Shown one piece after another: positions 37,614-56,997 of a stretch of 64,000 nt of DNA. The stretch spans positions 637,805-701,804 of the forward strand of contig NC_022444.1 of the NCBI RefSeq assembly GCF_000468495.1. The letters are read 5' to 3'. The notes below the pieces were generated by a model, which had not been told where the DNA came from, searched no databases, and was given only the letters and a program-made list of their open reading frames with translations. Made by a program: the position numbers and the translations under genes. Each line of letters opens with the position of its first letter. The stretch's first letter is position 1. This DNA comes from Megalodesulfovibrio gigas DSM 1382 = ATCC 19364 (GTDB taxonomy: Bacteria; Desulfobacterota; Desulfovibrionia; Desulfovibrionales; Desulfovibrionaceae).

Positions 37614-38210
37614 GTGTTTTTCCTCAAGGAGCTTCCCGCCCGGGACATCCTGGACGCCTACGGCCGCCGCTTTCCGCAGATGGATGTTCCCTGCGTGGCG
37701 GCGGCCCTGGAGTTGCTGCGGTCGGCCAGCGTGCTGCTGCGCCGGCTGGAGGCCTATTTTGCGACGCATGGCCTCTCCCAGACGCGGTTTCTCATTCTCA
37801 TCCTCATCGACCGCGAGCCCGAAGCCGGCGGCCTGACCGCCACGGACCTGGCGGCCCGGCTGGATGTCTCCAAGCCGGTGGTTTCCAACACGGTGCAGGC
37901 CCTGCTGCATGAAGGCCTGCTGGAGGCTGCGCCCCATGAACGGGATCTGCGTTCCCGACGCTTCCGCCTGGCCCCGGCCGGCAAGGCCCGGCTGGACGCC
38001 CTGCTCCCGGGCTATTACGAGCTGCTTCAACAGCACATGCATGGGCAGCAGGCCGCGGTTCAGCACACCAGCTGCGGCCCGGAGACTTCCGCCAGCACGG
38101 CCTCTACATCCAGCACGAAGCCGATGCCCCCGCCCGTGAGCAGCACGCAGCCGCCCAGGGAAGGATGCCAGTCGCAACACGGAGCCAGGGGCGAGACCGC
38201 CCCGCGATAA
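37614..38210 (+). CDS. MarR-family transcriptional regulator with read-through tail
   Basis: 198 residues from a GTG immediately after the preceding stop. Residues ~25-145 form a winged helix-turn-helix of the MarR type (LEAYFATHGLSQTRFLILILI, LTATDLAARLDVSKPVVSNTVQALLHEGLLEAAPHERDLRSRRFRL). A normal MarR protein would end near residue 145-150. The last ~50 residues (STASTSSTKPMPPPV...) are low-complexity, and their DNA is the antisense of the final 151 nt of the CheA-like gene. A lost stop codon is likely. It probably represses its own operon through the TTAGCATGCTAA site. Confidence 0.78.
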   Translation: MFFLKELPARDILDAYGRRFPQMDVPCVAAALELLRSASVLLRRLEAYFATHGLSQTRFLILILIDREPEAGGLTATDLAARLDVSKPVVSNTVQALLHEGLLEAAPHERDLRSRRFRLAPAGKARLDALLPGYYELLQQHMHGQQAAVQHTSCGPETSASTASTSSTKPMPPPVSSTQPPREGCQSQHGARGETAPR

Positions 38211-39145
38211 CGGCCACGCACGGCGGCCACGCCCAGGGCCAGCCGCTCGCCCGAGGCCGCCTGCAGGATCACCGCCTGCCGCGGAAACTCGGTCCGGAAA
38301 CGCCCGTCCAGCAGCCCGGCCAGATCCAGAAAGGGCACGGTCTCCCGCCCGCAGGACAACACCTCGTGCTGCTGCAGCATGGTGAGGGCCGTGGCCTGCA
38401 GGGGCTGAATGGCCGCGATGGTCTCCATGGGGATGACGATGCGGTGCGTCCCGGCCTGGAACACCACGCCATCCAGAAACTGAAAGGCCAACGGGATGCT
38501 GCACACGGCCACGGCCCCGCCTTCCGGGCCGGGCTTGAGGCAGAAGGAGCCGTGCAGGGCGGCCATGGTCTGCTCGATGCGTCGCATGCCGGAGCGGCCG
38601 GAAAGCGCCGCGCCACTGCAGGCGCTCGGACCGCGGCCGTCGTCGCGCACTTCCACGCGCACGGCGCCGTTCTGGCAGGCGGCGCAGATCTCCAGCCTGC
38701 CTTTGGCCGGCTTGCCGGCGGCCAGGCGCTCGGCCGGGAATTCCAGCCCGTGTTCCACGGCATTGCGCACCAGATGCGCCAGGGGATCCTCCAGGGCTTC
38801 CAGGATGGCCACATCCACGGCCAGATCCGCACCATCCATGTGCAGTTCCAGCTCCTTGTCGCAGCGGCGGGCCATATCCATGGAAAGGGCTTTCATCTGC
38901 CGAAAGAGCTTGCTGAAATTGGCGGCGCGGATGCCGATGGTGATGTCTTTGAGTCGCTCCAGCAGGGCATCCTGCTCGTCGAGGGGCCGGGCCAGACCGG
39001 CGCGTTCCTGGCCGGCAAGCCGCAACTGCTGCTGATTGGAAAGCAGGTCCTGCAGCACCTGCAGCAGGGCGTCGCCCAGTTCGCGGGGGACCTTGAGATC
39101 GGCCTGCTCGCGCACGGCAACGCCTTGTTGGGTATCATAGAGCAT
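38060..39145 (-). CDS. CheA-like protein lacking the HPt domain
   Basis: 361 residues. A short N-terminal helical region is followed by a kinase-like ATPase domain with the N-box DPLAHLVRNAVEHGLE, VEVRDDGRGP (G1-like) and a weakly conserved G2 region (SGRSGMRRIEQTMAALHG). The last ~130 residues are a CheW-like domain (QFLDGVVFQAGTHRIVIPMETIAAIQPL). The N-terminal phosphotransfer (P1) domain of CheA is missing, so it cannot autophosphorylate in the usual way. It is the last gene of the Sia/FeoB run, 3 nt after the diguanylate cyclase gene. It may act as a scaffold, as a kinase for SiaC-type partners, or be degenerating. Confidence 0.7.
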   Translation of the reverse strand: MLYDTQQGVAVREQADLKVPRELGDALLQVLQDLLSNQQQLRLAGQERAGLARPLDEQDALLERLKDITIGIRAANFSKLFRQMKALSMDMARRCDKELELHMDGADLAVDVAILEALEDPLAHLVRNAVEHGLEFPAERLAAGKPAKGRLEICAACQNGAVRVEVRDDGRGPSACSGAALSGRSGMRRIEQTMAALHGSFCLKPGPEGGAVAVCSIPLAFQFLDGVVFQAGTHRIVIPMETIAAIQPLQATALTMLQQHEVLSCGRETVPFLDLAGLLDGRFRTEFPRQAVILQAASGERLALGVAAVRGRYRGAVSPLAPCCDWHPSLGGCVLLTGGGIGFVLDVEAVLAEVSGPQLVC

Positions 39146-39148
39146 GGA

Positions 39149-39940
39149 TCAACCTCCCGGAGGTGTCGCACCGCAAGGCGCAGGGGTGCAGGAATGCAAC
39201 GGCGCATGCGCCGCCACCTGATTGCGGCCGGCGGCCTTGGCTGCATAGAGGGCCTCGTCCGCGGCCTTGATGAGCCGGTCCACGGTATCCACGCGGCCGC
39301 CGATGGTGGCAACACCGATGCTCACCGTGTATCCGATGCGATGTCCCTGCACCGGCACCGCACACTGGGCCATGTTGCTGCGCAGGCGGTCCGCCACCTG
39401 CAGGGATTCGGCGAGATCCGCATCCGGGAGCAGCGCGGCGAATTCCTCCCCACCCAGGCGGGCAAAGAGGTCTTCCGCCCGCAAGGAGGCCTTGCCGATC
39501 ACGGCGATGTTTCTGAGAACGAGATCCCCTGCATCGTGGCCGTAGGTGTCGTTGATGCGTTTGAAGTGGTCGGCATCCACCAGAAACAACGACAAGGGCA
39601 AGGCATGCCGTGTTGCCCGGGACAGCGCCTGGTGCGCGGTCTCCATGAATGCCCTGCGATTGGCCAGCCCGGTGAGCATGTCCGTGGCTGCCAATCGCAG
39701 CAACTCTTCCTGCTTGCGCTCCAGGGCCTCGTTCAAGGTGGCGAGCTTTTGCTGCATGCGGTCGCCCATTTTCACCAACCGCATGCTTTGCCGGAAGAGT
39801 TTCTCGTACTCCCCCAGAAGAAAGGTGAATTCCTCGCGCATGCAGCAGTCGTCGTGCTCGGCCTGCTCCAGGCAGGTGCGGCATCGCGCGATGACCCGTT
39901 CTTCTTCGTGGAAGCCGAGGGCAAAGGCATTCATGGTCAT
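39149..39940 (-). CDS. siaD: SiaD-type diguanylate cyclase (GGDEF)
   Basis: 263 residues. An N-terminal helical region (~1-85) with a Cys-containing segment (RCRTCLEQAEHDDCCMREEF) precedes a GGDEF domain: DMLTGLANRRAF, FLVDADHFKRINDTYGHDAGD and the active-site RLGGEEFA. No RxxD inhibitory site directly upstream is obvious. It makes c-di-GMP. In the Sia system, unphosphorylated SiaC binds SiaD through its helical part and activates it, and the siaC gene overlaps this one by 4 nt. The C-terminal ~20 residues are Pro/Cys-rich. Confidence 0.85.
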   Translation of the reverse strand: MTMNAFALGFHEEERVIARCRTCLEQAEHDDCCMREEFTFLLGEYEKLFRQSMRLVKMGDRMQQKLATLNEALERKQEELLRLAATDMLTGLANRRAFMETAHQALSRATRHALPLSLFLVDADHFKRINDTYGHDAGDLVLRNIAVIGKASLRAEDLFARLGGEEFAALLPDADLAESLQVADRLRSNMAQCAVPVQGHRIGYTVSIGVATIGGRVDTVDRLIKAADEALYAAKAAGRNQVAAHAPLHSCTPAPCGATPPGG

Positions 39941-40323
39941 GCGTCTCCGTATGATTGCAACTCGAAGCGCAGGAACTGGGTTTCTTCCTTGAACTCCTCA
40001 CCGCACTCCTGTGCGATTTCATTTTCCTCGTGGTGACGCCACACCACCTGCACCTGCCGGCCGCCGGCGGCGGCTTCTTCCAGCATGTCGAACAGATTCA
40101 TGAGAATCTTGGAGCTGGAGCTGTTGAAGTAGACGATATCCACGGTCAGGTGCAGGGGCGTGGATTCTGTTTCCAGAAAGTCCCGGATCCACTGCAGCAC
40201 CGGTTCGTAGAACTTGACGGCGTGCTCGGGATACGATTCGCCGCGGATGGACAGATTGCCGTCCGCCGCACAAAAGGCGATGGAAGGGCTGGATTTGGTT
40301 CCCTTGATGAGCAGATCCTGCAT
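39937..40323 (-). CDS. siaC: SiaC-family regulatory phosphoprotein (DUF1987)
   Basis: 128 residues. SPSIAFCAADGNLSIRGESYPEHAVKFYEPVLQWIRDFL and VDIVYFNSSSSKILMNLFDMLEEAA are the family hallmarks; the TxSS-type phospho-acceptor appears as NSSSSK. SiaC is phosphorylated by SiaB and dephosphorylated by SiaA, and in its unphosphorylated form stimulates the cyclase SiaD. The start is 3 nt after siaB's stop. Assignment rests on motif recognition plus the perfect SiaA-B-C-D neighbourhood. Confidence 0.85.
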   Translation of the reverse strand: MQDLLIKGTKSSPSIAFCAADGNLSIRGESYPEHAVKFYEPVLQWIRDFLETESTPLHLTVDIVYFNSSSSKILMNLFDMLEEAAAGGRQVQVVWRHHEENEIAQECGEEFKEETQFLRFELQSYGDA

Positions 40324-40326
40324 GAT

Positions 40327-40923
40327 TCACCCCACCGCCTTGACGGAAAAGAACGACAGGCCTTCGGCGATGTCTGCAATGCAATAATCCAACGGCCGGC
40401 TGGCCTTGCGAGCCATTTCCAGGAACCCCAGGCCGGCGCCCTTGCTGTCTTCGGTGGTGGGTTCCTGGCGGCGCATTTCCTTGTACAGGGTCTTGAGCTC
40501 GTCCTTGGTCATGCTGCGCATGGCATCCAGCCGGTCGGCCAGCATGCGGCCTTTTTCCTGCTGGATGTAATTGCCGCAGAGCACGAAGAACCGCCGGTCG
40601 GCCTCGGCCTCCCGGCCCACCACCACCACGCCGTGGCGCATCTCCTCCACGCCGCCCTGCTCTCGCTGGGGCATGGTCTCTGCCGAGTAGTGCAGGATGT
40701 TCTGCATCTGCTCAATGAAGATGGCAAAGATGTTATGCGTCACGGCCATGCCGGCCTCTTCCACAGCCATGCGCTGCCGGAGCAGATCCCCAATGCCTTC
40801 CACCAGGGATTGGCTGGTGGGCCCGCTGTAGCAGAAGAGGATGCCTTCGCGTTTGAGGGATTCGTAAAACTCGTGCAGGTCTTGCAGCACGGCGGGAAAC
40901 GTTGCGATGCACGTCTGATTCAT
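40327..40923 (-). CDS. siaB: SiaB-family protein kinase
   Basis: 198 residues from the ATG at 40923, with GGAGAT 8 nt upstream. It has GILFCYSGPTSQSLVEGIGDLLRQRM, the helix VTHNIFAIFIEQMQNILHYS that corresponds to the GHKL N-box, a VVVGREAEADRRFFVLCGN strand and SKGAGLGFLEMARKASRPLDY that corresponds to the ATP lid. SiaB phosphorylates SiaC to switch off the cyclase. It sits 14 nt downstream of feoB and 3 nt upstream of siaC. Confidence 0.82.
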   Translation of the reverse strand: MNQTCIATFPAVLQDLHEFYESLKREGILFCYSGPTSQSLVEGIGDLLRQRMAVEEAGMAVTHNIFAIFIEQMQNILHYSAETMPQREQGGVEEMRHGVVVVGREAEADRRFFVLCGNYIQQEKGRMLADRLDAMRSMTKDELKTLYKEMRRQEPTTEDSKGAGLGFLEMARKASRPLDYCIADIAEGLSFFSVKAVG

Positions 40924-40937
40924 TCCGATCTCCAATA

Positions 40938-43505
40938 TCAACGGGATTGCGGGACAATGCGCTGATGGCGCAGGGAATCACCAATGGCTTCCACCGGAGA
41001 ACGCCCGGCGAACAGCCCCAGCCCCAACGCGATGCAGAACATGAGCACATAAAAAGCCTGCATCATCACAAAACCTGTAACCCCCAACACCGTCCCCAGG
41101 CTGAAGATGGCGCTGGCCACCAGAATGCCCACGGCCGAGGGGAAGAGGATGGCAAAAAGCATCCACTTGTACGAGCCGGTCTGCACCTTGACCATGATGG
41201 TGGCCGCAAAGCACGGCGGATACAGGGCAAAGAACACGATGAGCGCCAGGGCATGCAGGGGGGTCATGCCGGATTCGGTGCTCTCGGCGCCCATGCGGGC
41301 CTCCAGGGTGCCGCCTTCGTCCGCGCCCTGCTGAAAGAGCACGCCCAGGGTGGCCACGCTGGATTCCCGCGCCGCAAACGAGCTGACGAGGGCGATGTTG
41401 ATTTTCCAGTCAAACCCGGCGAACTGCGTCACCGGCTCCAGCGCCCGACCCAGGCGGCCAAAGAAGGAGTTCTCGATGCGCCGGTCCTTGATGGCCCGCT
41501 GCAGTTCCTTGCGGGTGGTCATCAACTGGCCCACGGCCGTGCCCACGGTGCGCTCGTCCTTCTCTTTCTTGCCGGGCTTGAGGAAGTTGAAGAACACCTG
41601 ATGCTGCTGCGCATAATCCGCCAGCACCTTGTCCATGCCGCTGCCGGCGTTGAGCCGGGCCGCAGTAAACCGGCTGGAATAGTGCATCAGTTCCAGCACG
41701 GTCTGCCTGTCTGCCAGCATCCCGGCAAACTGCGTCTCCTGTACGGCCTGCTGGAAGCTCTCGTAGGCCTGCTCCATGTCCTGCTCGTAGGTGGCCATCA
41801 CCGCCTGCGGCAGGTTGGGGAATTGCAACAGGGCAAACACGCAGACGCTCACCGCCAGTACGATGGTGCCCACCTTCTGGATGTATTCCCAGGTCCGTTG
41901 CAGGGTGCGGGTGGCCACACCGCGCACCGTGGGCAGGTGGTACGTGGGCATTTCCATCACAAAGGGCGCGCTTTCCCTGGATCTGAGCACCGTATGCGTG
42001 AGGATCCAGGCGATGATGAGGGCCATGAGGATGGTGACCGTGGAGATGAAGAACAGGGCAAAGCTCTTCTCGCCAGGAAAGAAGATGTTCACCAGCAGCG
42101 TGTACAAGGGCACCTTGGCCAGGCAGTTCATGTACGGCACGGTGAGGATGGTGGCCATGCGCGAGCGTTCGTCCGGAATGCCCTTGGTGGCCATGATGCC
42201 CGGCACGGCGCAGCCGCCGGCAAAGACGCCGCCCAAAATGAACGGCAGGGTGCTCTGCCCGTGCAGGCCGAACCGCTGGAAAATACGGTCCAGAATGAAG
42301 GCGATGCGCGCCATGTAGCCCGAGTCTTCCAGCATGGCGATGAGGGCGAACAGGATGAAGAAAATGGGCAGGTAGTTCAGCAGGGTGTTGGCGCTGTCCA
42401 CGCACCAGAGCACCAGGGCGCGCAACAGGCCGTCCTCCAGCAGGCCGGGGATGGGCAACAGATCCCCCACGATGCCCCGGAGCGATGCCAGGTACGGCCA
42501 GGTGTATTTGGTCAGCTCATAGCCCTGGACGATGGAGACCTGATAGATGCAGTACACCGTGAGCACCAGGAACATCGGGGCCAGGATGCGATGCAGCAAC
42601 ACGCGGTCAATGCGTTCGGAGAACGTGGCCTTGTGCCCGTCCGGCCGGTTGATGCACTGCTGGACAATCTCCTGCGCCCGGGCGTGGCGGCAGGCGAGGA
42701 TGTGGTCCGCAACCGAGAGGTGCGCGGCCTGCTCGAACATGGCGGCCGCCTTGTCCACCTGCTCCAGGATGGCGTCGGCGTCGGGATGGTTCTCCCGCAC
42801 CAGGCCACGGACCATCTCGTCCTGTTCCAGGAGCTTCACCGCCATCCAGCGCAGGGGATAGGCCGCGCCCAGGCGGGAATTCTGATGCAGGGCCTGCTCC
42901 AGGGCCACCACGGTTTCTTCCAGCGGGCCGTATTCCAGGGGACGCTTTGTCCGCTGCTGGCCGCGCACTCCGGCGATGGCCACCTGCTCCACCAGTTCCT
43001 TGCGCCCCATGTTCTTGCGACCCACCAGCGGCACCGCAGGCACCTCCAGAATACTGGAGAGGCGGTCTGCATCGATGTGTATGCCGTGGGCCTGGGCCAC
43101 ATCCATCATGTTCAGGCCCAGCACCACGGGCCGGTTGAGTTCCAGCAGCTGCAGGGTGAGCATGAGGCTGCGGGAAAGGTTGGAGGCGTCCATGATGTTG
43201 GCGATGCAGTCCGGCTTGTCCTGCAGCAGAAAGTCCCGGGCCACCCGTTCTTCCAGCGAGAACGAGGTGAGGCTGTACGTGCCGGGCAGGTCCACCACCT
43301 CCACGCGCATCTCGCCGTCCTTGTAGCGACCGGACTTTTTCTCCACGGTCACGCCGGGGTAGTTGGCTACATACTGGCTGGCGCCGGTGAGCATGTTGAA
43401 CACCGTGGACTTGCCGGCGTTCTGCTGCCCGGCCAGGGCCACCAGCAGATAACTCTTCACGGCGTGCGCGGCGGTTGCCGACTCGTCATCGATTCTGGAA
43501 TTCAT
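40938..43505 (-). CDS. feoB: Ferrous iron transporter FeoB
   Basis: 855 residues. The N-terminal G domain has GQQNAGKST (G1), NYPGVTVEKKSG (G2), DLPGTYSLT (G3) and NMMD (G4). The membrane part shows both Gate motifs, with IFFILFALIAMLEDSGYMARIAF, GGCAVPGIMATKGI and the conserved Cys/Tyr positions. A soluble insert of ~130 residues rich in Gln/Lys lies between the membrane halves (~575-710). It imports Fe(II). Its ATG overlaps the SiaA stop by 4 nt and its stop is 14 nt before siaB, so it is locked into the Sia operon. The companion feoA is 10 kb away. Confidence 0.95.
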   Translation of the reverse strand: MNSRIDDESATAAHAVKSYLLVALAGQQNAGKSTVFNMLTGASQYVANYPGVTVEKKSGRYKDGEMRVEVVDLPGTYSLTSFSLEERVARDFLLQDKPDCIANIMDASNLSRSLMLTLQLLELNRPVVLGLNMMDVAQAHGIHIDADRLSSILEVPAVPLVGRKNMGRKELVEQVAIAGVRGQQRTKRPLEYGPLEETVVALEQALHQNSRLGAAYPLRWMAVKLLEQDEMVRGLVRENHPDADAILEQVDKAAAMFEQAAHLSVADHILACRHARAQEIVQQCINRPDGHKATFSERIDRVLLHRILAPMFLVLTVYCIYQVSIVQGYELTKYTWPYLASLRGIVGDLLPIPGLLEDGLLRALVLWCVDSANTLLNYLPIFFILFALIAMLEDSGYMARIAFILDRIFQRFGLHGQSTLPFILGGVFAGGCAVPGIMATKGIPDERSRMATILTVPYMNCLAKVPLYTLLVNIFFPGEKSFALFFISTVTILMALIIAWILTHTVLRSRESAPFVMEMPTYHLPTVRGVATRTLQRTWEYIQKVGTIVLAVSVCVFALLQFPNLPQAVMATYEQDMEQAYESFQQAVQETQFAGMLADRQTVLELMHYSSRFTAARLNAGSGMDKVLADYAQQHQVFFNFLKPGKKEKDERTVGTAVGQLMTTRKELQRAIKDRRIENSFFGRLGRALEPVTQFAGFDWKINIALVSSFAARESSVATLGVLFQQGADEGGTLEARMGAESTESGMTPLHALALIVFFALYPPCFAATIMVKVQTGSYKWMLFAILFPSAVGILVASAIFSLGTVLGVTGFVMMQAFYVLMFCIALGLGLFAGRSPVEAIGDSLRHQRIVPQSR

Positions 43506-44749
43506 GCCCTCTCCCTTGCAACGCGCCCCGGGGCAAAGCCCAGGACAGTGACATCGTCGCGCCGAGCATGCGCGCCCCGATGTGTTTCAAAAAGTTCCCA
43601 AATGCCTGCCTGCTGCGTCTGGAACGGGTGCCCGCCATGCTCGCCCTGCTCACGGAGTTCGGCATGCGCCGAAAACTCTGCAATCAACTTGAGGAACCGC
43701 TTCTTGCCGAAGGGCAACTGTTTCTCGCCGCCCACCTGATCGAAGAGCCCGTCCGTGGACAGATGCACGCCCTTGATGCCGACCAGGGAGACGCGCTGTT
43801 CGGCATAGGCATGGTCCAGGGGCGCTTCGCGATAGCCGATGCCGATGCGCTCCGCCTTGAGCTCCTGCGTGGCGCCGTCCGCCACCATGAACGCGCTGAT
43901 GCCCGCCCCGGCGTAGCACAGCGAATCGGCGTCATTCGGCATCCAGCACAGGCCCATTTCCAGGCCATCGTTGGACCGCTTGGCCAGGGGTCCCTCGCTG
44001 CCATCCTGACCCAGAAAGGCCTTGAGGCGGCGATTGAGGGATTCCAGCACCAGCCCGGGCCGACCCTCCACGGCGGCGGCGTCCATGTTGTCCAGCATGC
44101 TGTGGACGATGAGGGTGATGAACGCGCCGGGCACGCCGTGGCCGGTGCAGTCGAACACGCCCACGAACACGCCGCCCGGCGTCCGGCGCAGCCAGTAGGA
44201 ATCCCCGCCCACCACATCGCGCGGCTTCCAGAGGATGTAGCCGTCGGCCACATAGTCCTTGAGCCGCGTCACCGGCACCTGCATCTGATGCTGGATGGCG
44301 CTGGCGCACTCGATGCTGTCCATCACCTGACGCTGGACCTCCTCCAACTCGGAGAGCATGCCGGCAATGCGGTGTTCGCGGTCCAGCAGGGACCGGCCCA
44401 TCCAGTACATGTTGCGCTTGAGGCGGATGAAGTCGTTCTCCCCGCCCTTCTCCGGCGGCAGATGCAGCTCCTGCAGCCCCTTGCCTTCCTGCAGGCTGCG
44501 GCAGAAGTTGTTGCACAGGGTGATGTTGCGCAGGGCCAGGATCTCTTCGAGCAGCTTGCTCACCGGGATGCACAGCAGCACCCAGATGGCAAGGTACATG
44601 ACGATACTGGATGTCACCGTCTCCCTGGGGGCAGTCTCGATCATCACCAGCGCAGCGATGGCAGGAATGAATACGCTTATCATCACCAAGGTGCGGACCT
44701 GCATGCGGATGCCCAGGTCAGCCAACCAGTCCAAGATGCGACGCCACAT
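43502..44749 (-). CDS. siaA: SiaA-like PP2C/SpoIIE-type membrane phosphatase
   Basis: 415 residues. Two N-terminal TM helices (LVMISVFIPAIAALVMI and SSIVMYLAIWVLLCIPVSKLL) are followed by a HAMP-like linker and a PP2C/SpoIIE phosphatase domain: VGGDSYWLRRT, GVFVGVFDCTGHGVPGAFITLI, ISAFMVADG, HLSTDGLFDQVGG and RRDDVTVLGFAPG. Metal-binding Asp residues are present. It would dephosphorylate SiaC. The periplasmic part is only ~20 residues, far shorter than in Pseudomonas SiaA, so the input signal differs. GGAGGG precedes the ATG; the gene starts 20 nt after the P1B ATPase stop. Confidence 0.85.
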   Translation of the reverse strand: MWRRILDWLADLGIRMQVRTLVMISVFIPAIAALVMIETAPRETVTSSIVMYLAIWVLLCIPVSKLLEEILALRNITLCNNFCRSLQEGKGLQELHLPPEKGGENDFIRLKRNMYWMGRSLLDREHRIAGMLSELEEVQRQVMDSIECASAIQHQMQVPVTRLKDYVADGYILWKPRDVVGGDSYWLRRTPGGVFVGVFDCTGHGVPGAFITLIVHSMLDNMDAAAVEGRPGLVLESLNRRLKAFLGQDGSEGPLAKRSNDGLEMGLCWMPNDADSLCYAGAGISAFMVADGATQELKAERIGIGYREAPLDHAYAEQRVSLVGIKGVHLSTDGLFDQVGGEKQLPFGKKRFLKLIAEFSAHAELREQGEHGGHPFQTQQAGIWELFETHRGAHARRDDVTVLGFAPGRVARERA

Positions 44750-44769
44750 GAATACCGGCCCTCCGAAGT

Positions 44770-46896
44770 CTAGTTTGCCGCGCTCAGGGCCGGCAGTTTG
44801 GGAGCACGAAGGTTGCGCGCTGCGGCCCAGCCGAGCACGCCGAGGGTGAAGCCGTTGTGCAGCGTGGCCCACAGGGCAGGCGCACCGCGGCCGGCTGCAG
44901 CCAGGGCCAGGATGGCGCCATTGACGCCCACCGCGCCCCAGAAGGATTGCTGCACCGACCGATCCAGCCGCAGGGCAATGGCCCGCGCCGCGGCCAGGCT
45001 GTGGATGTCCTCGTGCAGCAGCAGCACCTGGGCCGTTTCCCGCGCCAGATCCGCGCCCTTGGGCATGCACACGCCCACCTTGGCCAGCATCATGGCCGGG
45101 GTATCATTGAGGCCGTCGCCCACGTAGGCGATGATCCGGCCGGCGTCCACCAGCTCCTGAACCATGGCGGCCTTTTCCTCGGGCTTGAGCTCGGCATGGG
45201 CCGCGTCCAGCTCGGGCAGCTCGCGCAGCAGGTTGTTGGCGGTCTGCAGATGGTCCCCGGTGAGCACCACCATGCGCTCAATGCCCATGCTGCGCAGCTG
45301 ACGCAGGGTCTCCCGCGCTTCGGGGCGGATGGCGTCGGCCAGGCCCACCACGCCGGCCAACTGGCCATCCAGGGCCACGTACAGCACGGTGTTGCCCTTG
45401 GCCCGCAGGGATTCCGCCTTGTGTTCCAGCAGGGAGGCATCCACGTGCTCGTCTTCCACGATGAAGTGCCGGCTGCCCACCAGCACGCGCCGGCCTTCCA
45501 CCAGTGCAGAGACGCCATGGGCCACGATAAATTCCACCTGCGGCGTGGCGGGAATCTCCACGTCGCGGCGATGGGCCTCGGCCACCACGGCCCGGGCCAC
45601 GGGATGCCCGTAATGCGCCTCTGCCGCCGCAGCCAGGGCCAGCAGGCCGTTCTCGTCCAGCCCGCATTGCGGGGAGGCCACAATGCCGGTCACGGCCAGT
45701 TCGCCGCTGGTGAGGGTGCCGGTCTTGTCGAAGACCAGCGTGTCCACGGCGGCGAAGTCTTCCAGCGCCTGCGCGCCCTTGAAGATCACCCCGGCATGCC
45801 CGGCCGCATACATGCTGCTGCGCACGGCCACGGGGGTGGCCAGCTTGATGGTGCAGGAAAAGTCCACGGTGAGCACCGAGGCGGCGCGGCGGATGTCCCG
45901 CGTCACCAGCCACATGAGCACGCCGAGGCCAAAGGTGATGGGCACCAGCCTGTCGGCCAGTTGGGCCCGGTTCTCCTGCGTGGCGGACTTGGCCCGCAAG
46001 GACTGTTGCAAAAACCGGTTGATGCGGGCCAGGCGGGTGCCGTCGCCCACTTCTTCCGCAGCGATGACCAGCTTGCCCTCCTCCACCACCGCCCCGGAAA
46101 GGGCCATGGTGCCGGGCTTGTAGTGCGCCGGGGCAGCCTCGCCGCTGATGGAGCTGGTGTTCACCGACGCCTCGCCCTCCACCACTTCCCCATCCACGGG
46201 GATGAGTTCTCCGGGACCGCAGACCACGCGGTCGCCCTTTTCGATGGCTCCCACGGGGAGTTGCACTTCTGCGCCGTCGCGCAGCACCCAGGCGAATTCC
46301 GCCTGCGGCCGCATGAGGGTTGCCAGCAGGTCGGTGGAGGAATTCTCGAGCCGGCCTTCCAGATATTCCACCAGGGAAAGCACGGTGACCACGAGGGAAC
46401 TGGTCAGGTAGTCCCCGCGCAGGAGCGAGGCGGCCACCACGACGCCGTCCAGCACCTTCACGCGCACGCCGTCCGTAAGCAGGGTGTATGCGCCCTCGAA
46501 GATCACCGGCGCGCCCAGCACCCAGGCGACCATGGCCCGCAGATGGCGCGGCAGCACAAGATTCAGGGCCAGGGCCGCGCCGCGCACGGCCACAGGGTAG
46601 AAGGATGGTGCGGCCGGAGCCGCAAACCCGGAGCGGAACGCCTCCGCAGGGAGGCGTTCCAGAAGCTCCAGGGCCTTGATGCGGGCATCGTCCCCGTCAT
46701 GTTCCAGCACCACGCTTTGGGCCTTGCGATTGATGCGACAGCGCCGCACCCCGGGCACGGCCTGCAGGCGGGCCTGCAGGTATTCCGTATCCAGCTCGGG
46801 ATCGAGGAACATCGGCCCTTGCCAACGGATCCGGCCGGGGATTTCGTGGGCCACCTGCAGGCGGCGCTGCTGGCTGGAGGGCGTGGCGATGGACAT
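44770..46896 (-). CDS. fezB: P1B-type ATPase with SCT motif, FezB-like
   Basis: 708 residues. An N-terminal HMA-like region contains HEIPGRIRW. Core ATPase motifs: SGEAAPAH (A domain), the membrane metal motif SCTIKLATP (~345) in place of CPC, FDKTGTLT (~387), HYGHPVARA (HP motif) and GDGLNDTPAMM (~593). Ser-Cys-Thr is the mark of the P1B-6 subgroup, which includes FezB of ferrosome clusters, where it is thought to pump iron into the organelle. Only six clear TM helices are visible after an N-terminal membrane pair. It sits at the centre of a run of small membrane proteins and next to siaA. Metal identity is inferred. Confidence 0.82.
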   Translation of the reverse strand: MSIATPSSQQRRLQVAHEIPGRIRWQGPMFLDPELDTEYLQARLQAVPGVRRCRINRKAQSVVLEHDGDDARIKALELLERLPAEAFRSGFAAPAAPSFYPVAVRGAALALNLVLPRHLRAMVAWVLGAPVIFEGAYTLLTDGVRVKVLDGVVVAASLLRGDYLTSSLVVTVLSLVEYLEGRLENSSTDLLATLMRPQAEFAWVLRDGAEVQLPVGAIEKGDRVVCGPGELIPVDGEVVEGEASVNTSSISGEAAPAHYKPGTMALSGAVVEEGKLVIAAEEVGDGTRLARINRFLQQSLRAKSATQENRAQLADRLVPITFGLGVLMWLVTRDIRRAASVLTVDFSCTIKLATPVAVRSSMYAAGHAGVIFKGAQALEDFAAVDTLVFDKTGTLTSGELAVTGIVASPQCGLDENGLLALAAAAEAHYGHPVARAVVAEAHRRDVEIPATPQVEFIVAHGVSALVEGRRVLVGSRHFIVEDEHVDASLLEHKAESLRAKGNTVLYVALDGQLAGVVGLADAIRPEARETLRQLRSMGIERMVVLTGDHLQTANNLLRELPELDAAHAELKPEEKAAMVQELVDAGRIIAYVGDGLNDTPAMMLAKVGVCMPKGADLARETAQVLLLHEDIHSLAAARAIALRLDRSVQQSFWGAVGVNGAILALAAAGRGAPALWATLHNGFTLGVLGWAAARNLRAPKLPALSAAN

Positions 46897-46903
46897 GACA
46901 GAG

Positions 46904-47137
46904 TTATCCTTTACGGTTGGATGAAGGGTACAGGGTATGATGCCAGAGGGAGAACCCCACCAGCGCCACCCCGGCTGCCAGATGCAGACGCCTGGACGTC
47001 TTGCCGCCCACAAAGCCGGTGGCCACCAGGGCGGCCAGCGAAAGGGTCATGCCGTGTTTGGCAAGGGTCTTCGCGTCCAGCCCTTTGTCGGTACGGCCGC
47101 AGCGGCCAGCCATGGGCAGAGTGCCATCGTTACCCAT
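46904..47137 (-). CDS. Small two-helix membrane protein of the ferrosome-like run
   Basis: 77 residues. Hydrophobic stretches KHGMTLSLAALVATGFVGG and HLAAGVALVGFSLWHHTLYP predict two membrane helices with a basic loop (KTSRRL). No family recognised. The ATG overlaps the stop of the preceding low-complexity protein gene (ATGGGTAA) and the stop is 7 nt before the P1B ATPase, so it is translated with both. A pair of histidines at the end of helix 2 could bind metal. Confidence 0.65.
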   Translation of the reverse strand: MGNDGTLPMAGRCGRTDKGLDAKTLAKHGMTLSLAALVATGFVGGKTSRRLHLAAGVALVGFSLWHHTLYPSSNRKG

Positions 47138-47525
47138 TGCGCTGGCTCATCTCGGCTTTGACGTCTTCCACTTTTTCCTTGATCTCTTCGATGGAGCCCT
47201 GCACGGAGGTCCAGAGCTTCACCGCACCTTTCACCAGGGCCTGCTGCACCGTGGGATTGGTCAACACCAGGGCCACGGCAGCACCCACGGCCAGACCGCC
47301 CAGGTAGTGCTTGTCCGTGACGTTGAACCAGCTCTTCAGCCCGTCCGGCGAGGTGCACAGGTTGGACGTGGACGCATCGACGGCAGGCGCCTGATACTGG
47401 GCCTGGGCGTAGTGCGGGGCATATTGCGGCGCGTACTGCTGCTGCGCATACTGCGGCTGCGCGTACTGCTGTTGCGCGTACTGCTGTTGCGGCGCATACG
47501 GATAATACTGCGGATACTGACTCAT
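47130..47525 (-). CDS. Tyr/Gln-rich low-complexity protein with glycine-zipper tail (short)
   Basis: 131 residues. The first ~45 residues are built of YAQQQ/YAPQ-type repeats, prion-like in composition. A short soluble segment (SPDGLKSWFNVTDKHYLGG) leads to a hydrophobic glycine/alanine helix (GLAVGAAVALVLTNPTVQQAL) and an amphipathic C-terminal coiled coil (VQGSIEEIKEKVEDVKAEM). The helix resembles one in the 333-residue protein upstream (VGAALAVLLTNNAVKDAL), so the two are paralogous at their C-terminal ends. GGGGGA precedes the ATG. I infer a structural role on a membrane compartment. Confidence 0.7.
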   Translation of the reverse strand: MSQYPQYYPYAPQQQYAQQQYAQPQYAQQQYAPQYAPHYAQAQYQAPAVDASTSNLCTSPDGLKSWFNVTDKHYLGGLAVGAAVALVLTNPTVQQALVKGAVKLWTSVQGSIEEIKEKVEDVKAEMSQRNG

Positions 47526-47538
47526 TGGATTCCCCCGC

Positions 47539-47949
47539 CTACTGTTTGACGACCTTGCCGCCCTTGGAATCGGCAGCGGCGATGGCCGGTTCCGCCGGAG
47601 CCGCGGCCACCGCAGCCTTGCAGGCCCCGGACATGGCATTATTCCAGACGTACTTCACGGCCGTGCCCACGGCGAACATCCCCAGCAATCCCACCACGCC
47701 GCCCATGCCCACGGTGGTGGCCACGGCTGCGCCGGCAGCAGCGGCCAGACCGGAGCCGCTGGCTTCCTTGATGGTGTGCATAGCCGCCTGCTGCTTGTCC
47801 ATGGTGCCGGCGCGGTAGCCGGCGATGCCTTCGGCCAGACCGGCGGACGCGCCCAGCACGGCCCCGAACACACCCGCGCCCAGCGCCACGCGGGAAACCG
47901 GGGCCACGGTGGCCACGGAAGAAGACATGGCGTAATTCTGCTTGGTCAT
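47539..47949 (-). CDS. MamC/Mms13-like two-helix membrane protein
   Basis: 136 residues. After a short N-terminus, GAGVFGAVLGASAGLAEGI forms the first glycine-rich helix, a ~20-residue polar loop with a TIKEASGSGLAAA turn follows, and VGMGGVVGLLGMFAVGTAV plus KYVWNNAM form the second. This pattern, including GKE/KEA-G-GLA and AKY-W-(D/N), matches my memory of magnetosome protein MamC (Mms13) along its whole core. In magnetotactic bacteria MamC coats magnetosomes and binds magnetite through the loop. The C-terminus has an Ala/Pro/Glu tail. No mamAB core genes are in the window, so an iron-organelle role outside magnetosomes is inferred. Confidence 0.68.
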   Translation of the reverse strand: MTKQNYAMSSSVATVAPVSRVALGAGVFGAVLGASAGLAEGIAGYRAGTMDKQQAAMHTIKEASGSGLAAAAGAAVATTVGMGGVVGLLGMFAVGTAVKYVWNNAMSGACKAAVAAAPAEPAIAAADSKGGKVVKQ

Positions 47950-47953
47950 GACC

Positions 47954-48955
47954 TTATTCTCCTTGAGGGGCGGATGATTGCCCGGAACCGATGAGCCCGC
48001 CGACCATGCCGGTCAGCGCGTCCTTGACGGCGTTGTTGGTGAGCAGGACGGCCAGGGCTGCGCCCACGGCCGCGCCCTTCCAGAACTGGGCCGAGCAGCT
48101 TTCCAGCATGCCCACCATGGCAGAGGGGTTGGGCGTGCGGCCGCTCATGAGATCGTTCACAAAGCCCATCATGTGGCCAAGGCCCTGCGCGCCTGCGCCG
48201 GCCGGATCGTCATGCTTGCCGCACCCGCAGCCACTGCCGCCGTCGTGCGAAGCCGGCTGGCCATAAGCCCCCGGTGCGGCCCCCGGTGCAGCCCCCGGCG
48301 CGGCCTGATACGCCGCCCCGTAGGCAGCCTGAAACTGCGGCTGACCGGGCATGAACGCCGGCTGCATGGCCGGGCCGCCGTACATGGGCTGCGCCTGAGG
48401 TGCCGGACCGGCCTGGGGCATGCCCTGCGGCTGCTGCGGCTGGCCATACATGTATTGCGCGGCGGCGGGCTGGGGAGCCTGCGCGGGGGGCGCCTGGTAC
48501 ATGTACTGCTCGTGCTGGGGCACGTGCTGTGGCGCAGGCCCCTGGGACATGTACCGGCCCTGCTGGGGCGCGGCAGCCTGGGGAGCCATGGCCGGACCCT
48601 GCTGCGGCGCCTGATACATATACTGCCCCTGGGGCGCGGCAGCCTGGGGAGCCTGATACATGTATTGCGCCTGGGCAGCGGCCTGGCCTTCGTCGTCATC
48701 GCAAGACTTGGCGGCGTCCGCACTGCCGCCATTCTGCTTGCCGTGCTGCCAGCCGCCTTCGGCCTCGGGTTGCGCAGCCTGCGGCACAGCGGCCGGGGCC
48801 TGGGGAGCCGGGGCCTGGTAGCCCTGCCCGTACTGCAGCATCACCAGACCTGCCTGGTCGCCGTACTGGGCGGCCTGCGGCTCCTGCGCATACTTTGGTC
48901 CCGCAGGAGCCTGTTCCGGCGGCGGGGCATACTGGGGAAAGCCCATTTCGTTCAT
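47954..48955 (-). CDS. QYMYQAP-repeat low-complexity protein with glycine-zipper tail
   Basis: 333 residues from ATG 48955 (AAGGAG 8 nt upstream). The N-terminal ~230 residues are Gln, Pro, Ala, Tyr and Met-rich, with recurring Q-Y-M-Y-Q-A-P units and an ESAD-type acidic spot (SADAAKSCDDDEG). A GCGCGKHDDP Cys/His cluster follows (~245-255). The end carries a helix WKGAAVGAALAVLLTNNAVKDAL and the GMVGGLIGSG tail, shared with the short low-complexity protein downstream. The composition predicts disorder and possible self-association. Located between the HMA-like and MamC-like genes, it could sheath or nucleate an iron compartment. No database family recognised. Confidence 0.72.
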   Translation of the reverse strand: MNEMGFPQYAPPPEQAPAGPKYAQEPQAAQYGDQAGLVMLQYGQGYQAPAPQAPAAVPQAAQPEAEGGWQHGKQNGGSADAAKSCDDDEGQAAAQAQYMYQAPQAAAPQGQYMYQAPQQGPAMAPQAAAPQQGRYMSQGPAPQHVPQHEQYMYQAPPAQAPQPAAAQYMYGQPQQPQGMPQAGPAPQAQPMYGGPAMQPAFMPGQPQFQAAYGAAYQAAPGAAPGAAPGAYGQPASHDGGSGCGCGKHDDPAGAGAQGLGHMMGFVNDLMSGRTPNPSAMVGMLESCSAQFWKGAAVGAALAVLLTNNAVKDALTGMVGGLIGSGQSSAPQGE

Positions 48956-48994
48956 GCGTTCTGCTCCTTGTGCATGCTGGGGGTGAAACAACTG

Positions 48995-49315
48995 TTACTG
49001 CACGCAACGCTGCGCTGCTGGTGAAACAAGCTGCAGCGCGCAATGCAACACGTGCTCGTCCGAAGACTGATGTGCAAAAATGTCCTGCAACACAGCGAAC
49101 GGGATGATTTCCGGATGGTATTCAAGCACCATGGTCTTGGCCATGATGTTGACCCGCGTCGCCTTGACGCCAGCCAGCATGCCCACGGATTCCCGCAACG
49201 AGGAAAACGAGGGATGCTTCTGGATGGCCGGATTGAACACCAACCGCAACCGCCCCGGAATGTGATGCGCCACCGTGGCGTATTGGCGCAGCACCAGCAA
49301 ATCTTTCGGATTCAT
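48995..49315 (-). CDS. HMA-like (HMAD) protein, FezC-like candidate
   Basis: 106 residues from ATG 49315 (AAGGA upstream; an adjacent TTG is an alternative). It carries HHIPGRLRLVFNP, the same H-x-x-P-G-R-x-R signature seen at the N-termini of both P1B ATPases, then VKATRVNIMAKTMVLEYHPEIIP, a ferredoxin-like HMA-type fold without the CxxC. It is the first gene after the double Fur-like site and thus heads the long run. I infer a role in iron delivery to the ATPase or organelle; FezC proteins share this kind of domain. Confidence 0.65.
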   Translation of the reverse strand: MNPKDLLVLRQYATVAHHIPGRLRLVFNPAIQKHPSFSSLRESVGMLAGVKATRVNIMAKTMVLEYHPEIIPFAVLQDIFAHQSSDEHVLHCALQLVSPAAQRCVQ

Positions 49316-49424
49316 CAATCTGTCCTTCCGCTGTACGGCGTTCCCACCGCGAGCGTATTCGATAATGCCGGATCCCTGTACATGTCTTCCTGATCCGGCA
49401 AGTCCACTGACACGCTAGTTCAAA

Positions 49425-49472
49425 TTGATAATCATTGACAACCATCGATAAGTACAATGATTATTCTCATCA
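49425..49472 (-). promoter_or_regulatory. Double Fur-like operator for the ferrosome/Sia/FeoB run
   Basis: A perfect inverted repeat, ATAATCATTG (49428-49437) and CAATGATTAT (49455-49464), lies in the only large gap of the run. TGATAATCATTGACA (49426-49440) matches the Fur 7-1-7 consensus at 12 of 14 positions, and TGATTATTCTCATCA (49458-49472) at 11 of 14. The gene behind it is read leftwards. A weak promoter can be drawn across the site, but I cannot fix the start point. Confidence 0.68.
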
Positions 49473-49514: not shown

Positions 49515-51647
49515 TCAATAAACTTTTTTCTGCATCAACCGTGCGGAGTTGAGCAACACGGCAGACGTGTGCCCGATGTGCAACAGGCCTGCGGCCACCG
49601 GTCCCAGCACGCCGAGCGCCCCGGCCAGGCCGCCCAGGATGTTGCTGCCCGTGGCGATCCAGAAATTTTCATGGATGATGCGGATGGTGCGGCGCGAAAG
49701 CTGGTGCGCCTTCATCACGCCTTCCAGATCCTCGCCCAGCAGCGCGATATCCGCCGCTTCCAGGGCCGCCTCGTTGCCGTGGGATCCCAGGGCCACGCCC
49801 ACTTCCGCCTCCACCATGGCCAGGGCGTCGTTCACGCCGTCGCCCACCATGGCCGGCCGTTTGCCCTGGCCGCGCAAATCCACCATCAGCCGGGCCTTGT
49901 CCTCGGGCAGGGCCGAAACCAGCACGTTGGGGATGCGCAGATCCCGCGCCAGGGCCTGGGCAGTCAGGGCCTCGTCCCCGGTGACCAGATGCACGTCCAC
50001 ACCGCTGCCCCGGAAGTACTCCACCACTGCGCCGGCATCCGCGCGCACGGGGTTGGCCACGCCGAACAGCCCCCGCACCTCGCCCTGGCTGGCCAGGAAC
50101 AGCACGGTCAGGCCGTCCGCCTGCATGGCGCTCACTCGCAAATCGCCCTGCGGGAAGGGGACCTCGAAGCGCTGCAGCAGTTTGTAGTTGCCCACCAGCA
50201 CGTCCCGGCCGTCCACCACGGCATGCACGCCCTGCCCCAGAAAGTATTCGCAGCGTTCGTGCCCCTGCGGGGTCAGCCCCAGGGCCGCGCCGTGATCCTT
50301 GATGGCCTCGGCCAGGGGATGATGATTGTGCGCCTCGGCGGAAAGCGCCAACTGCAGCACCTCGGCTTCACCCAGGCCGTTCATGGTGTGGATGGCGGCC
50401 AGATGCGGCAGGGCGCCGGTGAGGGTGCCGGTCTTGTCCAGACACACGGTGTCCACCCCGGCAAAGCGTTCCAGGGGACGGCCGCCCTTGAAGATGATCC
50501 GCTCCCGCGCCCCGCCGGCAATGGCGGCATTGATGGCCGAGGACGCCGCCAGGGACGTGGCGCACGGGCAGGCCATCACCAGCAGCACGGTGAACGCCCG
50601 CCACAGGCTCTGCGTGAAGACCAGCGTGCCCACGGTGACCAGAAAACCAATGTTGATGGTCCGCCGGGCCAGGGTGTCGGCCATATGTTCGATGTCCGAG
50701 CGGTGGGAAAGGCCGGCCTCCACCTTGTCGAAAATGCGCGCCAGATACGTCTCTTCCCCCACGCAGCGGGCTTCCACGTGAATCACCCCGCGCCGCACCA
50801 CGCTGCCGGCGTACACCGACGCGCCCACGCCGCAGGCCTCCAGCTCGGAACGACCGGTCATGGAGGAGCTGTCCACCAGCGCCTCGCCGGAAATCACCAC
50901 GCCATCCGCCGGAATGCGTTCCCCGGCGTGCAGGGCCAGCACGTCACCGGGCTGCAGGTCTGCTGTGGGCGTCTCCACTTCCACCCCGTCACGCAACACG
51001 AAGGTGTGGTGGGCGGTTTCCTTGAGCATGGCCTTGATGCTGCGCCGGGAGCGCCGGGCCATGTGGGCCGTGAGCAGGTCCGAGCCGGTGTTGATCCACA
51101 ACACTTCCAGCGCCGTGGAGACCTCCCCTGCCCCGGCTGCCGCCAGAATGGCCCCGCCCAGAAAGGATTCCAGGCTGACCTTGCCCCGCCGGACATCCTT
51201 CGCCATGCTTTTAAGGAGCGGCAGTACCCCGAAGAGCACTGCCGCCCCCACTGGAGACACCAGCCCCGGCGCCGCCGCCGAGAGCAACACCTTGCGACCC
51301 AGCATCCACAAGCCGGCGGCGGTCAGCACCCCGAAGCGCACCGCATGGGGCCGGAGCGACGGCTCCTCGATGCGTCGTGCGGGGCAGGCGCAGTGTCCCA
51401 GAGTCTGTGGCTCCCGGCATTGCGCCGGGTCCATGGCGAGCAGTGCGGCAAGAATGGCGGCGGTGGTCAGCTGGCTGGCGTCGAACACCACCACCAGACT
51501 TCGGCAGGCGGGGTTGCTGCGCGCATACGTCACCCCGGCCAGCCCTTCCACCAGCGTCTGCGCGGTCCGCAGGCGCTCGCCGCCATGCACGCATCTGATC
51601 CGCACCCGGCCGGGCACGGTGTGCACCATGGAGAACAATCGGCTCAT
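49515..51647 (-). CDS. P1B-type heavy-metal ATPase with CPC motif
   Basis: 710 residues. HTVPGRVRIRC begins a short HMA-like N-terminus, without CxxC. Hydrophobic helices from ~100 are followed by SSMTGRSELEAC (A domain), the metal site ACPCATSLAA (~360), LDKTGTLTGALP (~401), HHPLAEAI (HP motif), GDGVNDALAMVEA and three C-terminal helices. A CPC motif points to a different subgroup from the SCT ATPase 5 kb downstream, so the pair may move different ions or act in series. The ATG overlaps the stop of the HD-GYP gene; GAGGAGG lies 5-11 nt upstream. A Fur-like operator lies just after its 3' end. Confidence 0.85.
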   Translation of the reverse strand: MSRLFSMVHTVPGRVRIRCVHGGERLRTAQTLVEGLAGVTYARSNPACRSLVVVFDASQLTTAAILAALLAMDPAQCREPQTLGHCACPARRIEEPSLRPHAVRFGVLTAAGLWMLGRKVLLSAAAPGLVSPVGAAVLFGVLPLLKSMAKDVRRGKVSLESFLGGAILAAAGAGEVSTALEVLWINTGSDLLTAHMARRSRRSIKAMLKETAHHTFVLRDGVEVETPTADLQPGDVLALHAGERIPADGVVISGEALVDSSSMTGRSELEACGVGASVYAGSVVRRGVIHVEARCVGEETYLARIFDKVEAGLSHRSDIEHMADTLARRTINIGFLVTVGTLVFTQSLWRAFTVLLVMACPCATSLAASSAINAAIAGGARERIIFKGGRPLERFAGVDTVCLDKTGTLTGALPHLAAIHTMNGLGEAEVLQLALSAEAHNHHPLAEAIKDHGAALGLTPQGHERCEYFLGQGVHAVVDGRDVLVGNYKLLQRFEVPFPQGDLRVSAMQADGLTVLFLASQGEVRGLFGVANPVRADAGAVVEYFRGSGVDVHLVTGDEALTAQALARDLRIPNVLVSALPEDKARLMVDLRGQGKRPAMVGDGVNDALAMVEAEVGVALGSHGNEAALEAADIALLGEDLEGVMKAHQLSRRTIRIIHENFWIATGSNILGGLAGALGVLGPVAAGLLHIGHTSAVLLNSARLMQKKVY

Positions 51648-52384
51648 GCTGCCTCCTCGGCATGTCCATTCCGCTCATCGCGGCAGGAGTGCCGGTGAGC
51701 AAGATGACGAAAGAAATCCGCATCGTCCCGGCGCGGCATCTGCCGCTTGAACACGCTGACGATGTTGTGAAAACTCAAGGCAATGTCTGGGTCGAACTGC
51801 CTGCCGGACTGCCGGTGCACCTCCTGGGCAGCCTCCAGCAGCGAGACGCCGCGGCGGTACGGCCGGTCCTGCATCATGGCCGAGACGCAATCCGCCACGG
51901 CCAGCACGCGCGCGCCGCAGGGAATCTCGTCCCCGGCCAGCCCGCAAGGATACCCGTGGCCGTCGAAGCGTTCGTGATGATGCAGAATCATGGCCGCAAT
52001 CCCCTGCTCGTCGTTCAAGGCCTTGACCGGCGCCACGATGTGCGCCCCCACTTCGGGATGACGCTTCATCACCTCCCATTCCTCCGGGGAGAGTGGCCCT
52101 TCTTTCAGCAAAATATGGTCGGGCACGGCAATTTTTCCCAAATCGTGCAGGTGCCCGGCAATGTGGATGGCGCTGGCGGCCTCGCGGGACACGCCGTGAT
52201 CCAGCGCCAGGGCGTAGGCCAGCGCGGCCACCTGCTCCGAATGACACCGGGTGTGATGATCCTTGGCGTCAATGGCGCAGCCCAGCGCCTCGGCAAACTG
52301 GTGGATGGAGGAGCAGGTGCATTTGCAGGGCGGGGAGGCCGTGTCTCCCACATCCAGCAAGTACCAGGACTTATCATATAGCAT
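51644..52384 (-). CDS. HD-GYP-domain c-di-GMP phosphodiesterase-like protein
   Basis: 246 residues from ATG 52384 (AAGGAATT upstream). HD-GYP signature: HSEQVAALAYALALD, the HD in GHLHDLGKIAVPDHIL, HHHERFDGHGYPCGLAGDEIP (with the GYP triad) and ADCVSAMMQDRPYR. It likely degrades c-di-GMP. A CKCTC cluster and CAIDAKDHHTRCH lie just before the HD domain and could bind metal. Its stop overlaps the CPC ATPase start by 4 nt, coupling a c-di-GMP hydrolase to metal transport, opposite to the GGDEF gene at the far end of the cluster. Confidence 0.85.
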   Translation of the reverse strand: MLYDKSWYLLDVGDTASPPCKCTCSSIHQFAEALGCAIDAKDHHTRCHSEQVAALAYALALDHGVSREAASAIHIAGHLHDLGKIAVPDHILLKEGPLSPEEWEVMKRHPEVGAHIVAPVKALNDEQGIAAMILHHHERFDGHGYPCGLAGDEIPCGARVLAVADCVSAMMQDRPYRRGVSLLEAAQEVHRQSGRQFDPDIALSFHNIVSVFKRQMPRRDDADFFRHLAHRHSCRDERNGHAEEAA

Positions 52385-53321: not shown

Positions 53322-53375
53322 GCATCCTCCTCGATTTTGACTGTGAATTTCTTTCTCAATAACTTCGCAAAAAAA

Positions 53376-53821: not shown

Positions 53822-53850
53822 TTTCTACCGATATTGAATTTCATTGTCAA
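53822..53850 (-). promoter_or_regulatory. Promoter with Fur-like box for the exported-protein unit
   Basis: On the minus strand TTGACA (53850-53845), a 17-nt spacer and TAGAAA (53827-53822). TGACAATGAAATTCA overlaps the -35 and spacer and matches the Fur 7-1-7 consensus at about 10 of 14 positions. Confidence 0.6.
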
Positions 53851-55146: not shown

Positions 55147-55173
55147 ACCGACCTCCTGACAGCTTGCTGCATG

Positions 55174-56993: not shown

Positions 56994-56997
56994 CTGG

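Follow-up and report, generated by a model that had tools for sequence, protein, structure and literature searches.

In Pseudomonas, the second messenger cyclic di-GMP (c-di-GMP) is governed by the Sia cycle, in which SiaA and SiaB set the phosphorylation of SiaC, and the unphosphorylated SiaC activates SiaD (PMC7647112, PMC8457831). In Desulfovibrio, ferrosome-type iron storage is represented by the fezABC operon of D. magneticus (Grant et al. 2022, via PMC10979944), and in a 2004 study, Fur boxes were predicted upstream of gdp (GGDEF), hdd (HD), and a gene for a P-type ATPase in two species, and also upstream of a MoxR/CoxE operon, with overlapping pairs of Fur sites being called distinctive of the genus (PMC545781). 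Elements of these systems lie side by side in the window analyzed here, a stretch of 64,000 nucleotides (64 kb) from Megalodesulfovibrio gigas DSM 1382, where a Sia-type switch, the ferrous iron transporter FeoB, and a fez-like gene cluster quite likely form an iron-starvation unit that is repressed by Fur and has a c-di-GMP control arm of its own. On the evidence of its relatives, the window is one instance of a widespread module of the Desulfovibrionaceae, predicted to be controlled by Fur, in which iron and c-di-GMP genes are combined. This arrangement suggests a coupling, not described previously, of the iron supply to a signalling decision that affects the whole cell.

The core of the locus is a run of 12 minus-strand genes, from position 49315 down to 38060, with neighbors separated by −8 to +39 nucleotides (39, 4, 13, −8, 7, 20, −4, 14, 3, −4, and 3, in order from the HMA end). 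A first-pass annotation of this DNA had described such a leftward run of 12 genes with gaps of up to about 40 nucleotides and FeoB embedded among the Sia genes, and both points hold, given that feoB is flanked by siaA and siaB, and shares a 4-nucleotide overlap with siaA. That annotation, however, began the unit too narrowly at 49.4 kb, and omitted a gene for an HD-GYP protein, the Fur boxes further upstream, and a shared membrane input domain; it understated the case. The features of the locus are listed below.

53987..54316, plus strand: FeoA, separate from FeoB (PF04023, E=6e-21)
53922..53944, no strand: predicted Fur-box pair before the divergent feoA (15.9 + 13.8 bits)
53828..53850, no strand: predicted Fur-box pair before the "sec" gene (20.6 + 16.6 bits, 6-bp shift)
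53376..53690, minus strand: small secreted protein, "sec" (gene calls; conserved linkage to FeoB in relatives)
53337..53359, no strand: predicted Fur-box pair before the DUF4198 gene (13.4 + 13.3 bits)
52497..53321, minus strand: DUF4198 protein (PF10670, E=8e-54)
51644..52384, minus strand: predicted HD-GYP c-di-GMP phosphodiesterase (PF13487, E=7e-37; start possibly up to 52495)
49515..51647, minus strand: P1B-ATPase with a CPC motif, first gene of the fez-like cluster (TIGR01525, 436 bits; motif)
49419..49441, no strand: predicted Fur-box pair before the 12-gene run (two 17-mers, 6-bp shift, 16.7 + 12.3 bits)
48995..49315, minus strand: HMA_2-like protein (weak match to PF19991, E=8e-5, below the cut-off; conserved in the cluster)
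47954..48955, minus strand: low-complexity protein rich in Q, Y, and M (gene calls; positional homologues)
47539..47949, minus strand: MamC-like membrane protein (NF038051, E=5e-14, below the equivalog cut-off; alignment)
47130..47525, minus strand: Q-Y-A-P repeat protein with a hydrophobic tail (gene calls; homologues)
46904..47137, minus strand: two-helix membrane protein (gene calls; homologues)
44770..46896, minus strand: P1B-ATPase with an SCT motif, FezB-like (TIGR01525, 437 bits; motif; family search)
43502..44749, minus strand: SiaA-type PP2C phosphatase without a periplasmic sensor (6k4e, E=4e-38; structure model)
44366..44749, minus strand: N-terminal two-helix membrane input domain of SiaA, common to 2TM-GGDEF proteins (homology)
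40938..43505, minus strand: FeoB (TIGR00437, 458 bits against a cut-off of 316)
40327..40923, minus strand: predicted SiaB kinase (NF038262, 191 bits against a cut-off of 85; 6kko_A, E=1e-28)
39937..40323, minus strand: SiaC, with Ser68 at the position of the Thr68 phosphosite (PF09345, E=1e-42; 6kko)
39149..39940, minus strand: predicted SiaD diguanylate cyclase, GGEEF with an RxxD I-site (PF00990, E=6e-47; 7e6g, E=8e-33)
38060..39145, minus strand: CheA-like protein, HATPase_c + CheW (Pfam)

Upstream of the run, the HD-GYP gene overlaps that of the CPC ATPase by 4 nucleotides and, further upstream, the DUF4198 and "sec" genes each have their own Fur pair. Given these genes and their Fur pairs, the locus begins further upstream, and the functional block is predicted to extend from approximately 53.95 to 38.06 kb. 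The feoA gene is isolated and divergent, lies some 10 kb away from feoB, and has a double Fur box of its own.

The evidence for iron control was obtained with a 17 bp Fur matrix, built from the 42 Desulfovibrio sites in Table 3 of PMC545781. The window contains eight sites above 12 bits, all at 49.4–53.95 kb and in the form of four overlapping pairs, each with a 6-bp shift, which precede the HMA gene that leads the 12-gene run, the DUF4198 gene, the "sec" gene, and the divergent feoA. A Markov null model yielded only 0.1 sites above 12 bits per window, and a maximum of 15.7 bits across 50 windows. The four pairs thus have the overlapping form with a 6-bp shift expected of the Desulfovibrio Fur regulon, and Fur-dependent transcription is a prediction from these sites. 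The double Fur-like site proposed in the first-pass annotation is recovered as the pair before the run, although its second element, near 49455–49470, gives no score. Internal promoters or terminators that would split off the Sia part had been named there as evidence to the contrary. No sigma70-like promoter was found on the minus strand between 49315 and 38060, and terminator-like matches inside the run occur only at chance level, so that an uncoupled Sia part was rejected.

The catalytic residues of the Sia proteins and of the HD-GYP protein are all intact. In SiaC, Ser68 aligns with Thr68 of 6kko, and N67, S68, and S69 are invariant in 13 loci. SiaB scores above the NF038262 cut-off, and its FAIFIEQMQN segment aligns with FAVYIEMTQN of 6kko_A, with the catalytic Glu present. 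The metal-binding residues of the SiaA PP2C domain (D183, D200, D333, and D398) are invariant, and its best structural match is the SiaA PP2C domain 6k4e. SiaD has both GGEEF and RxxD, its match to 7e6g takes in the stalk, and cyclase activity is predicted from the sequence. The HD-GYP protein retains the HD, HHHER, and GYP motifs of the phosphodiesterases.

The N-terminus of SiaA is the part that departs from the known system. The full-length SiaA equivalog NF038263 reaches only 169 bits against a cut-off of 700, with the C-terminal part alone matching. An AlphaFold model (12 sequences, mean predicted local distance difference test score of 78.5) has a hairpin with no periplasmic domain, followed by a long helix and the PP2C fold. 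This N-terminal domain, composed of two membrane helices and a helical linker (2TM), is homologous in all the sensorless SiaA proteins. The initial idea of a SiaA that had merely lost its sensor gave way once this different, conserved membrane domain was recognized, and a Pfam identity for it was rejected, with a single weak, meaningless match being returned. By homology, the 2TM domain of SiaA is a family of its own.

SiaC occurs in 36 of the 149 Desulfovibrionaceae genomes searched, and its neighborhoods were compared over 20 kb each, with genes called by an in-house program and labelled by homology (loci are given L numbers, and one genome a G number). In the only congener available (L049), the gene order of the window recurs as far as its short contig reaches, which answers the doubt raised in the first-pass annotation that the order might be missing from every relative. 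The adjacency of siaB and feoB that it proposed to search for is present in four species, in which feoB lies between siaA and siaB with an identical 4-nucleotide siaA–feoB overlap. Other loci combine the same components differently, as sec–DUF4198–siaA–feoB–siaBCD (L050, L057), as siaDABC followed by the fez-like cluster (L045, L052, L060), as siaDABC followed by feoA–feoB–sec–DUF4198, often with Fur and MoxR–CoxE genes (L041, L042, L046–L048, L055, L059, L061, L062), or as siaD–siaC–HD-GYP within a fez operon (L058, L065). In Pseudodesulfovibrio (L041:6994-9787 and relatives), siaDABC is followed by genes for a MoxR AAA ATPase, a DUF2201/CoxE-like metallopeptidase–VWA protein, and a 153-amino acid protein, a group like the MoxR/CoxE operon for which Fur boxes were predicted in PMC545781.

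When SiaA proteins of less than 500 amino acids are taken as sensorless, and a Fur box of more than 13.5 bits in the operon promoter is required, such a box is present in the Sia operon of 21 of 24 sensorless loci and in none of nine with a long SiaA (Fisher 6e-6), compared with 10 of 154 unrelated transcription units of the same loci. Of the 24 sensorless loci, 17 have FeoB or FezB in the same 20 kb, as do none of the nine that bear a sensor. Based on the 62 FeoB genes counted in 32 genomes, the chance of finding FeoB within 15 kb of SiaC is approximately 1.6%, and the linkage was observed in 17 of 24 genomes and nine of 10 genera. As P values calculated from these counts ignore shared ancestry, and the threshold was picked by eye, more weight is placed on the recurrence of the link across genera and in differing gene orders. 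In a tree of SiaB and SiaC, the sensorless modules of the Desulfovibrionaceae group together (Shimodaira–Hasegawa-like approximate likelihood ratio test 81; subgroups 96 and 99). In a second sample of 80 named loci from many phyla, the iron link is almost confined to this family (e.g., Salidesulfovibrio brasiliensis, Pseudodesulfovibrio pelocollis, and Solidesulfovibrio aerotolerans), and the Firmicutes, Nitrospirae, Gallionella, and most Desulfobacterota have mostly a sensor-bearing SiaA with no iron genes beside it. The exception is one FeoB-labelled fragment adjoining siaC (L084). A chance or hitch-hiking neighborhood peculiar to D. gigas, which would fit the restriction of the exact 12-gene order to the genus, is rejected as wildly improbable, given that the link recurs in some 10 genera, in differing orders, and far above chance.

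The 2TM domain is found in 53 of the 149 genomes, usually as one copy, fused to either PP2C or GGDEF, and the genomes of the family that have no sensorless SiaA carry it fused directly to GGDEF. In a sample of 32 of these 2TM-GGDEF loci, a few of which are from other families, a Fur box stands in the operon promoter of 24 (compared with three of 58 background units), FeoB lies within 6 kb in 18, one or the other is present in 30, and an HD-GYP gene is located within two genes in 10. In the domain tree, a single branch (98/95) splits the PP2C-fused from the GGDEF-fused forms, and a single domain swap therefore joined the Sia relay to the 2TM input. Both forms occur in genome G096, where each has its own feoAB alongside. 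As the domain is fused to GGDEF in the same Fur/Feo setting elsewhere, the Sia relay would replace a one-protein cyclase. The gdp protein of PMC545781 is likely of this 2TM-GGDEF type, and the exact double Fur box of D. vulgaris gdp was found in none of 288 genomes; local matching of the published gdp and hdd sites also gave no exact match, and no paper on DVU0763 was found in the literature search.

Taken together, these observations are consistent with a scheme in which low iron causes Fur to leave its promoters, as predicted from the sites, and FeoB, FeoA, the fez-like cluster (two P1B-ATPases, the MamC-like protein, and other small membrane proteins), the HD-GYP protein, and SiaABCD would then be made. 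Judging from the conserved residues and the known Sia mechanism, SiaB would add, and SiaA remove, the phosphate of SiaC Ser68, and the unphosphorylated SiaC would switch on SiaD to produce c-di-GMP. The siaA and feoB genes may be coupled in translation. The leading guess for the input to the 2TM domain is a FeoB signal, or the Fe(II) of the membrane or cytoplasm. Attachment or motility is the probable output, or else the regulation of the iron machinery itself. The CheA-like and methyl-accepting chemotaxis protein (MCP)-like genes that end many Sia operons hint at motility. An ortholog of the CheA-like gene of the window (38060–39145), in which a Pfam search recognized no phosphotransfer domain, is present only in the two nearest loci, and other loci have an MCP-like protein after siaC. 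The predicted iron-dependent co-expression of uptake, putative storage, and c-di-GMP control, first proposed for the 12-gene run, is supported by the Fur boxes, and more strongly by the relatives.

Several points weigh against an iron-starvation unit with its own c-di-GMP arm. The support consists of sequence evidence throughout, and the Fur matrix itself derives from predicted sites. FeoB within sia is limited to one small subclade. The loci share ancestry within genera and are not independent, though the linkage spans several gene orders and genera. A Halodesulfovibrio-like group has a Fur-boxed Sia operon with no adjoining iron genes, and common regulation alone could account for the clustering, with no FeoB signal being involved.

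This last possibility, in which sia is one of many Fur targets, and lies near feoB and fez because Fur regulons cluster, with neither FeoB nor the ferrosome signalling to Sia, is the strongest alternative, and has about an even chance of being correct. Fur-boxed Sia operons with no iron neighbors (L039, L043, L053, L054, L056) are in its favor, and indicate that FeoB adjacency is not essential; GGDEF and HD genes were also predicted earlier as scattered Fur targets (PMC545781). It would not, however, explain why the 4-nucleotide siaA–feoB overlap is kept in four species, with feoB being foreign to other Sia operons, nor why the same membrane domain is found repeatedly beside FeoB in a different protein. 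A more specific proposal is that FeoB acts as both receptor and transporter, contacting the 2TM domain of either SiaA or the 2TM-GGDEF protein. In this way, c-di-GMP would be set by the flux of Fe(II) or by the GTPase state of FeoB, and reset by the HD-GYP protein at the ferrosome genes. This is offered tentatively, as a rather doubtful idea; if it were true, c-di-GMP would report the uptake and storage of ferrous iron.

The relay might, alternatively, control iron storage rather than attachment or motility, with c-di-GMP or the partner-switch protein SiaC regulating the assembly or ATPase of a fez-like organelle, or FeoB, although this seems unlikely. The cluster of the window has the order CPC ATPase–HMA–QYM–MamC–QYAP–two-helix–SCT ATPase, and is conserved in about 27 Desulfovibrionaceae genomes and a few other families, in most cases together with a FeoA-repeat protein. 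That repeat protein ("c49", L045:11439-12191 and homologues, with repeated FeoA domains) closes the fez-like cluster elsewhere, and is missing from the window, where siaA stands in its place. The second ATPase has the SC(A/T) motif, as FSCTIK (SCA in most homologues), which we take to be the mark of the P1B-6-type ATPases. The MamC-like protein scores 52 bits for NF038051 against a cut-off of 100, and is a distant homologue. Profile searches of the cluster proteins recognized neither FezA nor FezC/DUF4405, which are present in L216 and L263, and by these criteria the cluster is not a fezABC operon; the earlier label of a ferrosome-like cluster stands by homology only. Control of storage is favored by the presence of HD-GYP and SiaD–SiaC genes within fez operons of the D. 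magneticus type, even those that lack siaA and siaB, and by HD-GYP genes directly after fezABC, as in the probable D. magneticus genome, where one follows fezC by 19 nucleotides, and in L263, where a single run reads fezA–fezB–fezC–HD-GYP–2TM-GGDEF–feoB. On the other side, profile searches recognized no c-di-GMP-binding domain in the cluster proteins, and most eight-gene fez-like clusters have no c-di-GMP gene within 20 kb. In the operons led by siaD–siaC–HD-GYP (L058:4459-11420 and L065:4638-11290), which have Fur boxes, SiaC may work without the usual kinase and phosphatase, or may be served in trans.

Next to the locus, 54535–58131 (minus strand) encodes an FmdE-domain protein and an iron-chelate-type ATP-binding cassette (ABC) transporter (ATPase, permease, and binding protein), and the same four FmdE/ABC genes lie divergent to the sia–feo operon in Solidesulfovibrio aerotolerans (L126, L062). 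Beyond the other end, 33614–37039 (minus strand) encodes a hybrid histidine kinase, to which an NMT1-type substrate-binding domain is fused, and which also has a receiver and several PAS domains.

An iron-starvation unit with its own c-di-GMP arm would join three fields with no stated link, that is, ferrous iron uptake, ferrosome-type storage, and c-di-GMP signalling. It would also provide the Sia switch with a new input domain and with a setting outside Pseudomonas, and suggests an answer to the older question of why the Desulfovibrio Fur regulon includes GGDEF and HD genes. Both iron and attachment play a central part in the corrosion of metal by these bacteria. Desulfovibrio magneticus RS-1 represents a ready test system, with established ferrosomes, few relevant genes, and gene editing (PMC6210102). 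A search of the literature, mostly of freely accessible journals, found no paper linking Sia, FeoB, and ferrosomes, nor SiaC with FeoB, nor FeoB with c-di-GMP and GGDEF, and ferrosomes were unmentioned among the matches listed for ferrosome and c-di-GMP. Within the journals searched, the absence of a described link, as first claimed for this locus, stands, although Fur boxes before GGDEF, HD, and P-type ATPase genes had been predicted in 2004 (PMC545781).

Compared with the predicted Desulfovibrio Fur regulon, the window is alike in that overlapping Fur sites, paired with a 6-bp shift, precede c-di-GMP-type genes and ATPases, whereas the Sia system, the FeoB adjacency, the ferrosome link, and the input domain are not described in that study (PMC545781). 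FeoB has the usual GTPase, gate, and C-terminal domains, all above the cut-off, and differs in being embedded in a second-messenger switch, with feoA elsewhere in the locus. The fez-like cluster shares the SC(A/T) P1B-ATPase, small hydrophobic proteins, and an HMA-like domain with D. magneticus fezABC, as described in PMC10979944, and an HD-GYP neighbor with the probable D. magneticus genome. It differs in having both a CPC and an SCT ATPase, together with MamC-like and low-complexity proteins, and no recognized FezC/DUF4405 cytochrome, and is a putative ferrosome cluster. As in the SiaABCD system of P. aeruginosa, a PP2C phosphatase, a SiaB kinase, a SiaC phosphosite, and a SiaD with a stalk and I-site are combined in one operon (PMC7647112, PMC8457831). 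The SiaA of the window, by contrast, has no periplasmic region and a different, two-helix input domain, the phosphosite is a Ser, and the locus adds Fur boxes, feoB between siaA and siaB, fez-like genes, an HD-GYP gene, and a CheA-like gene.

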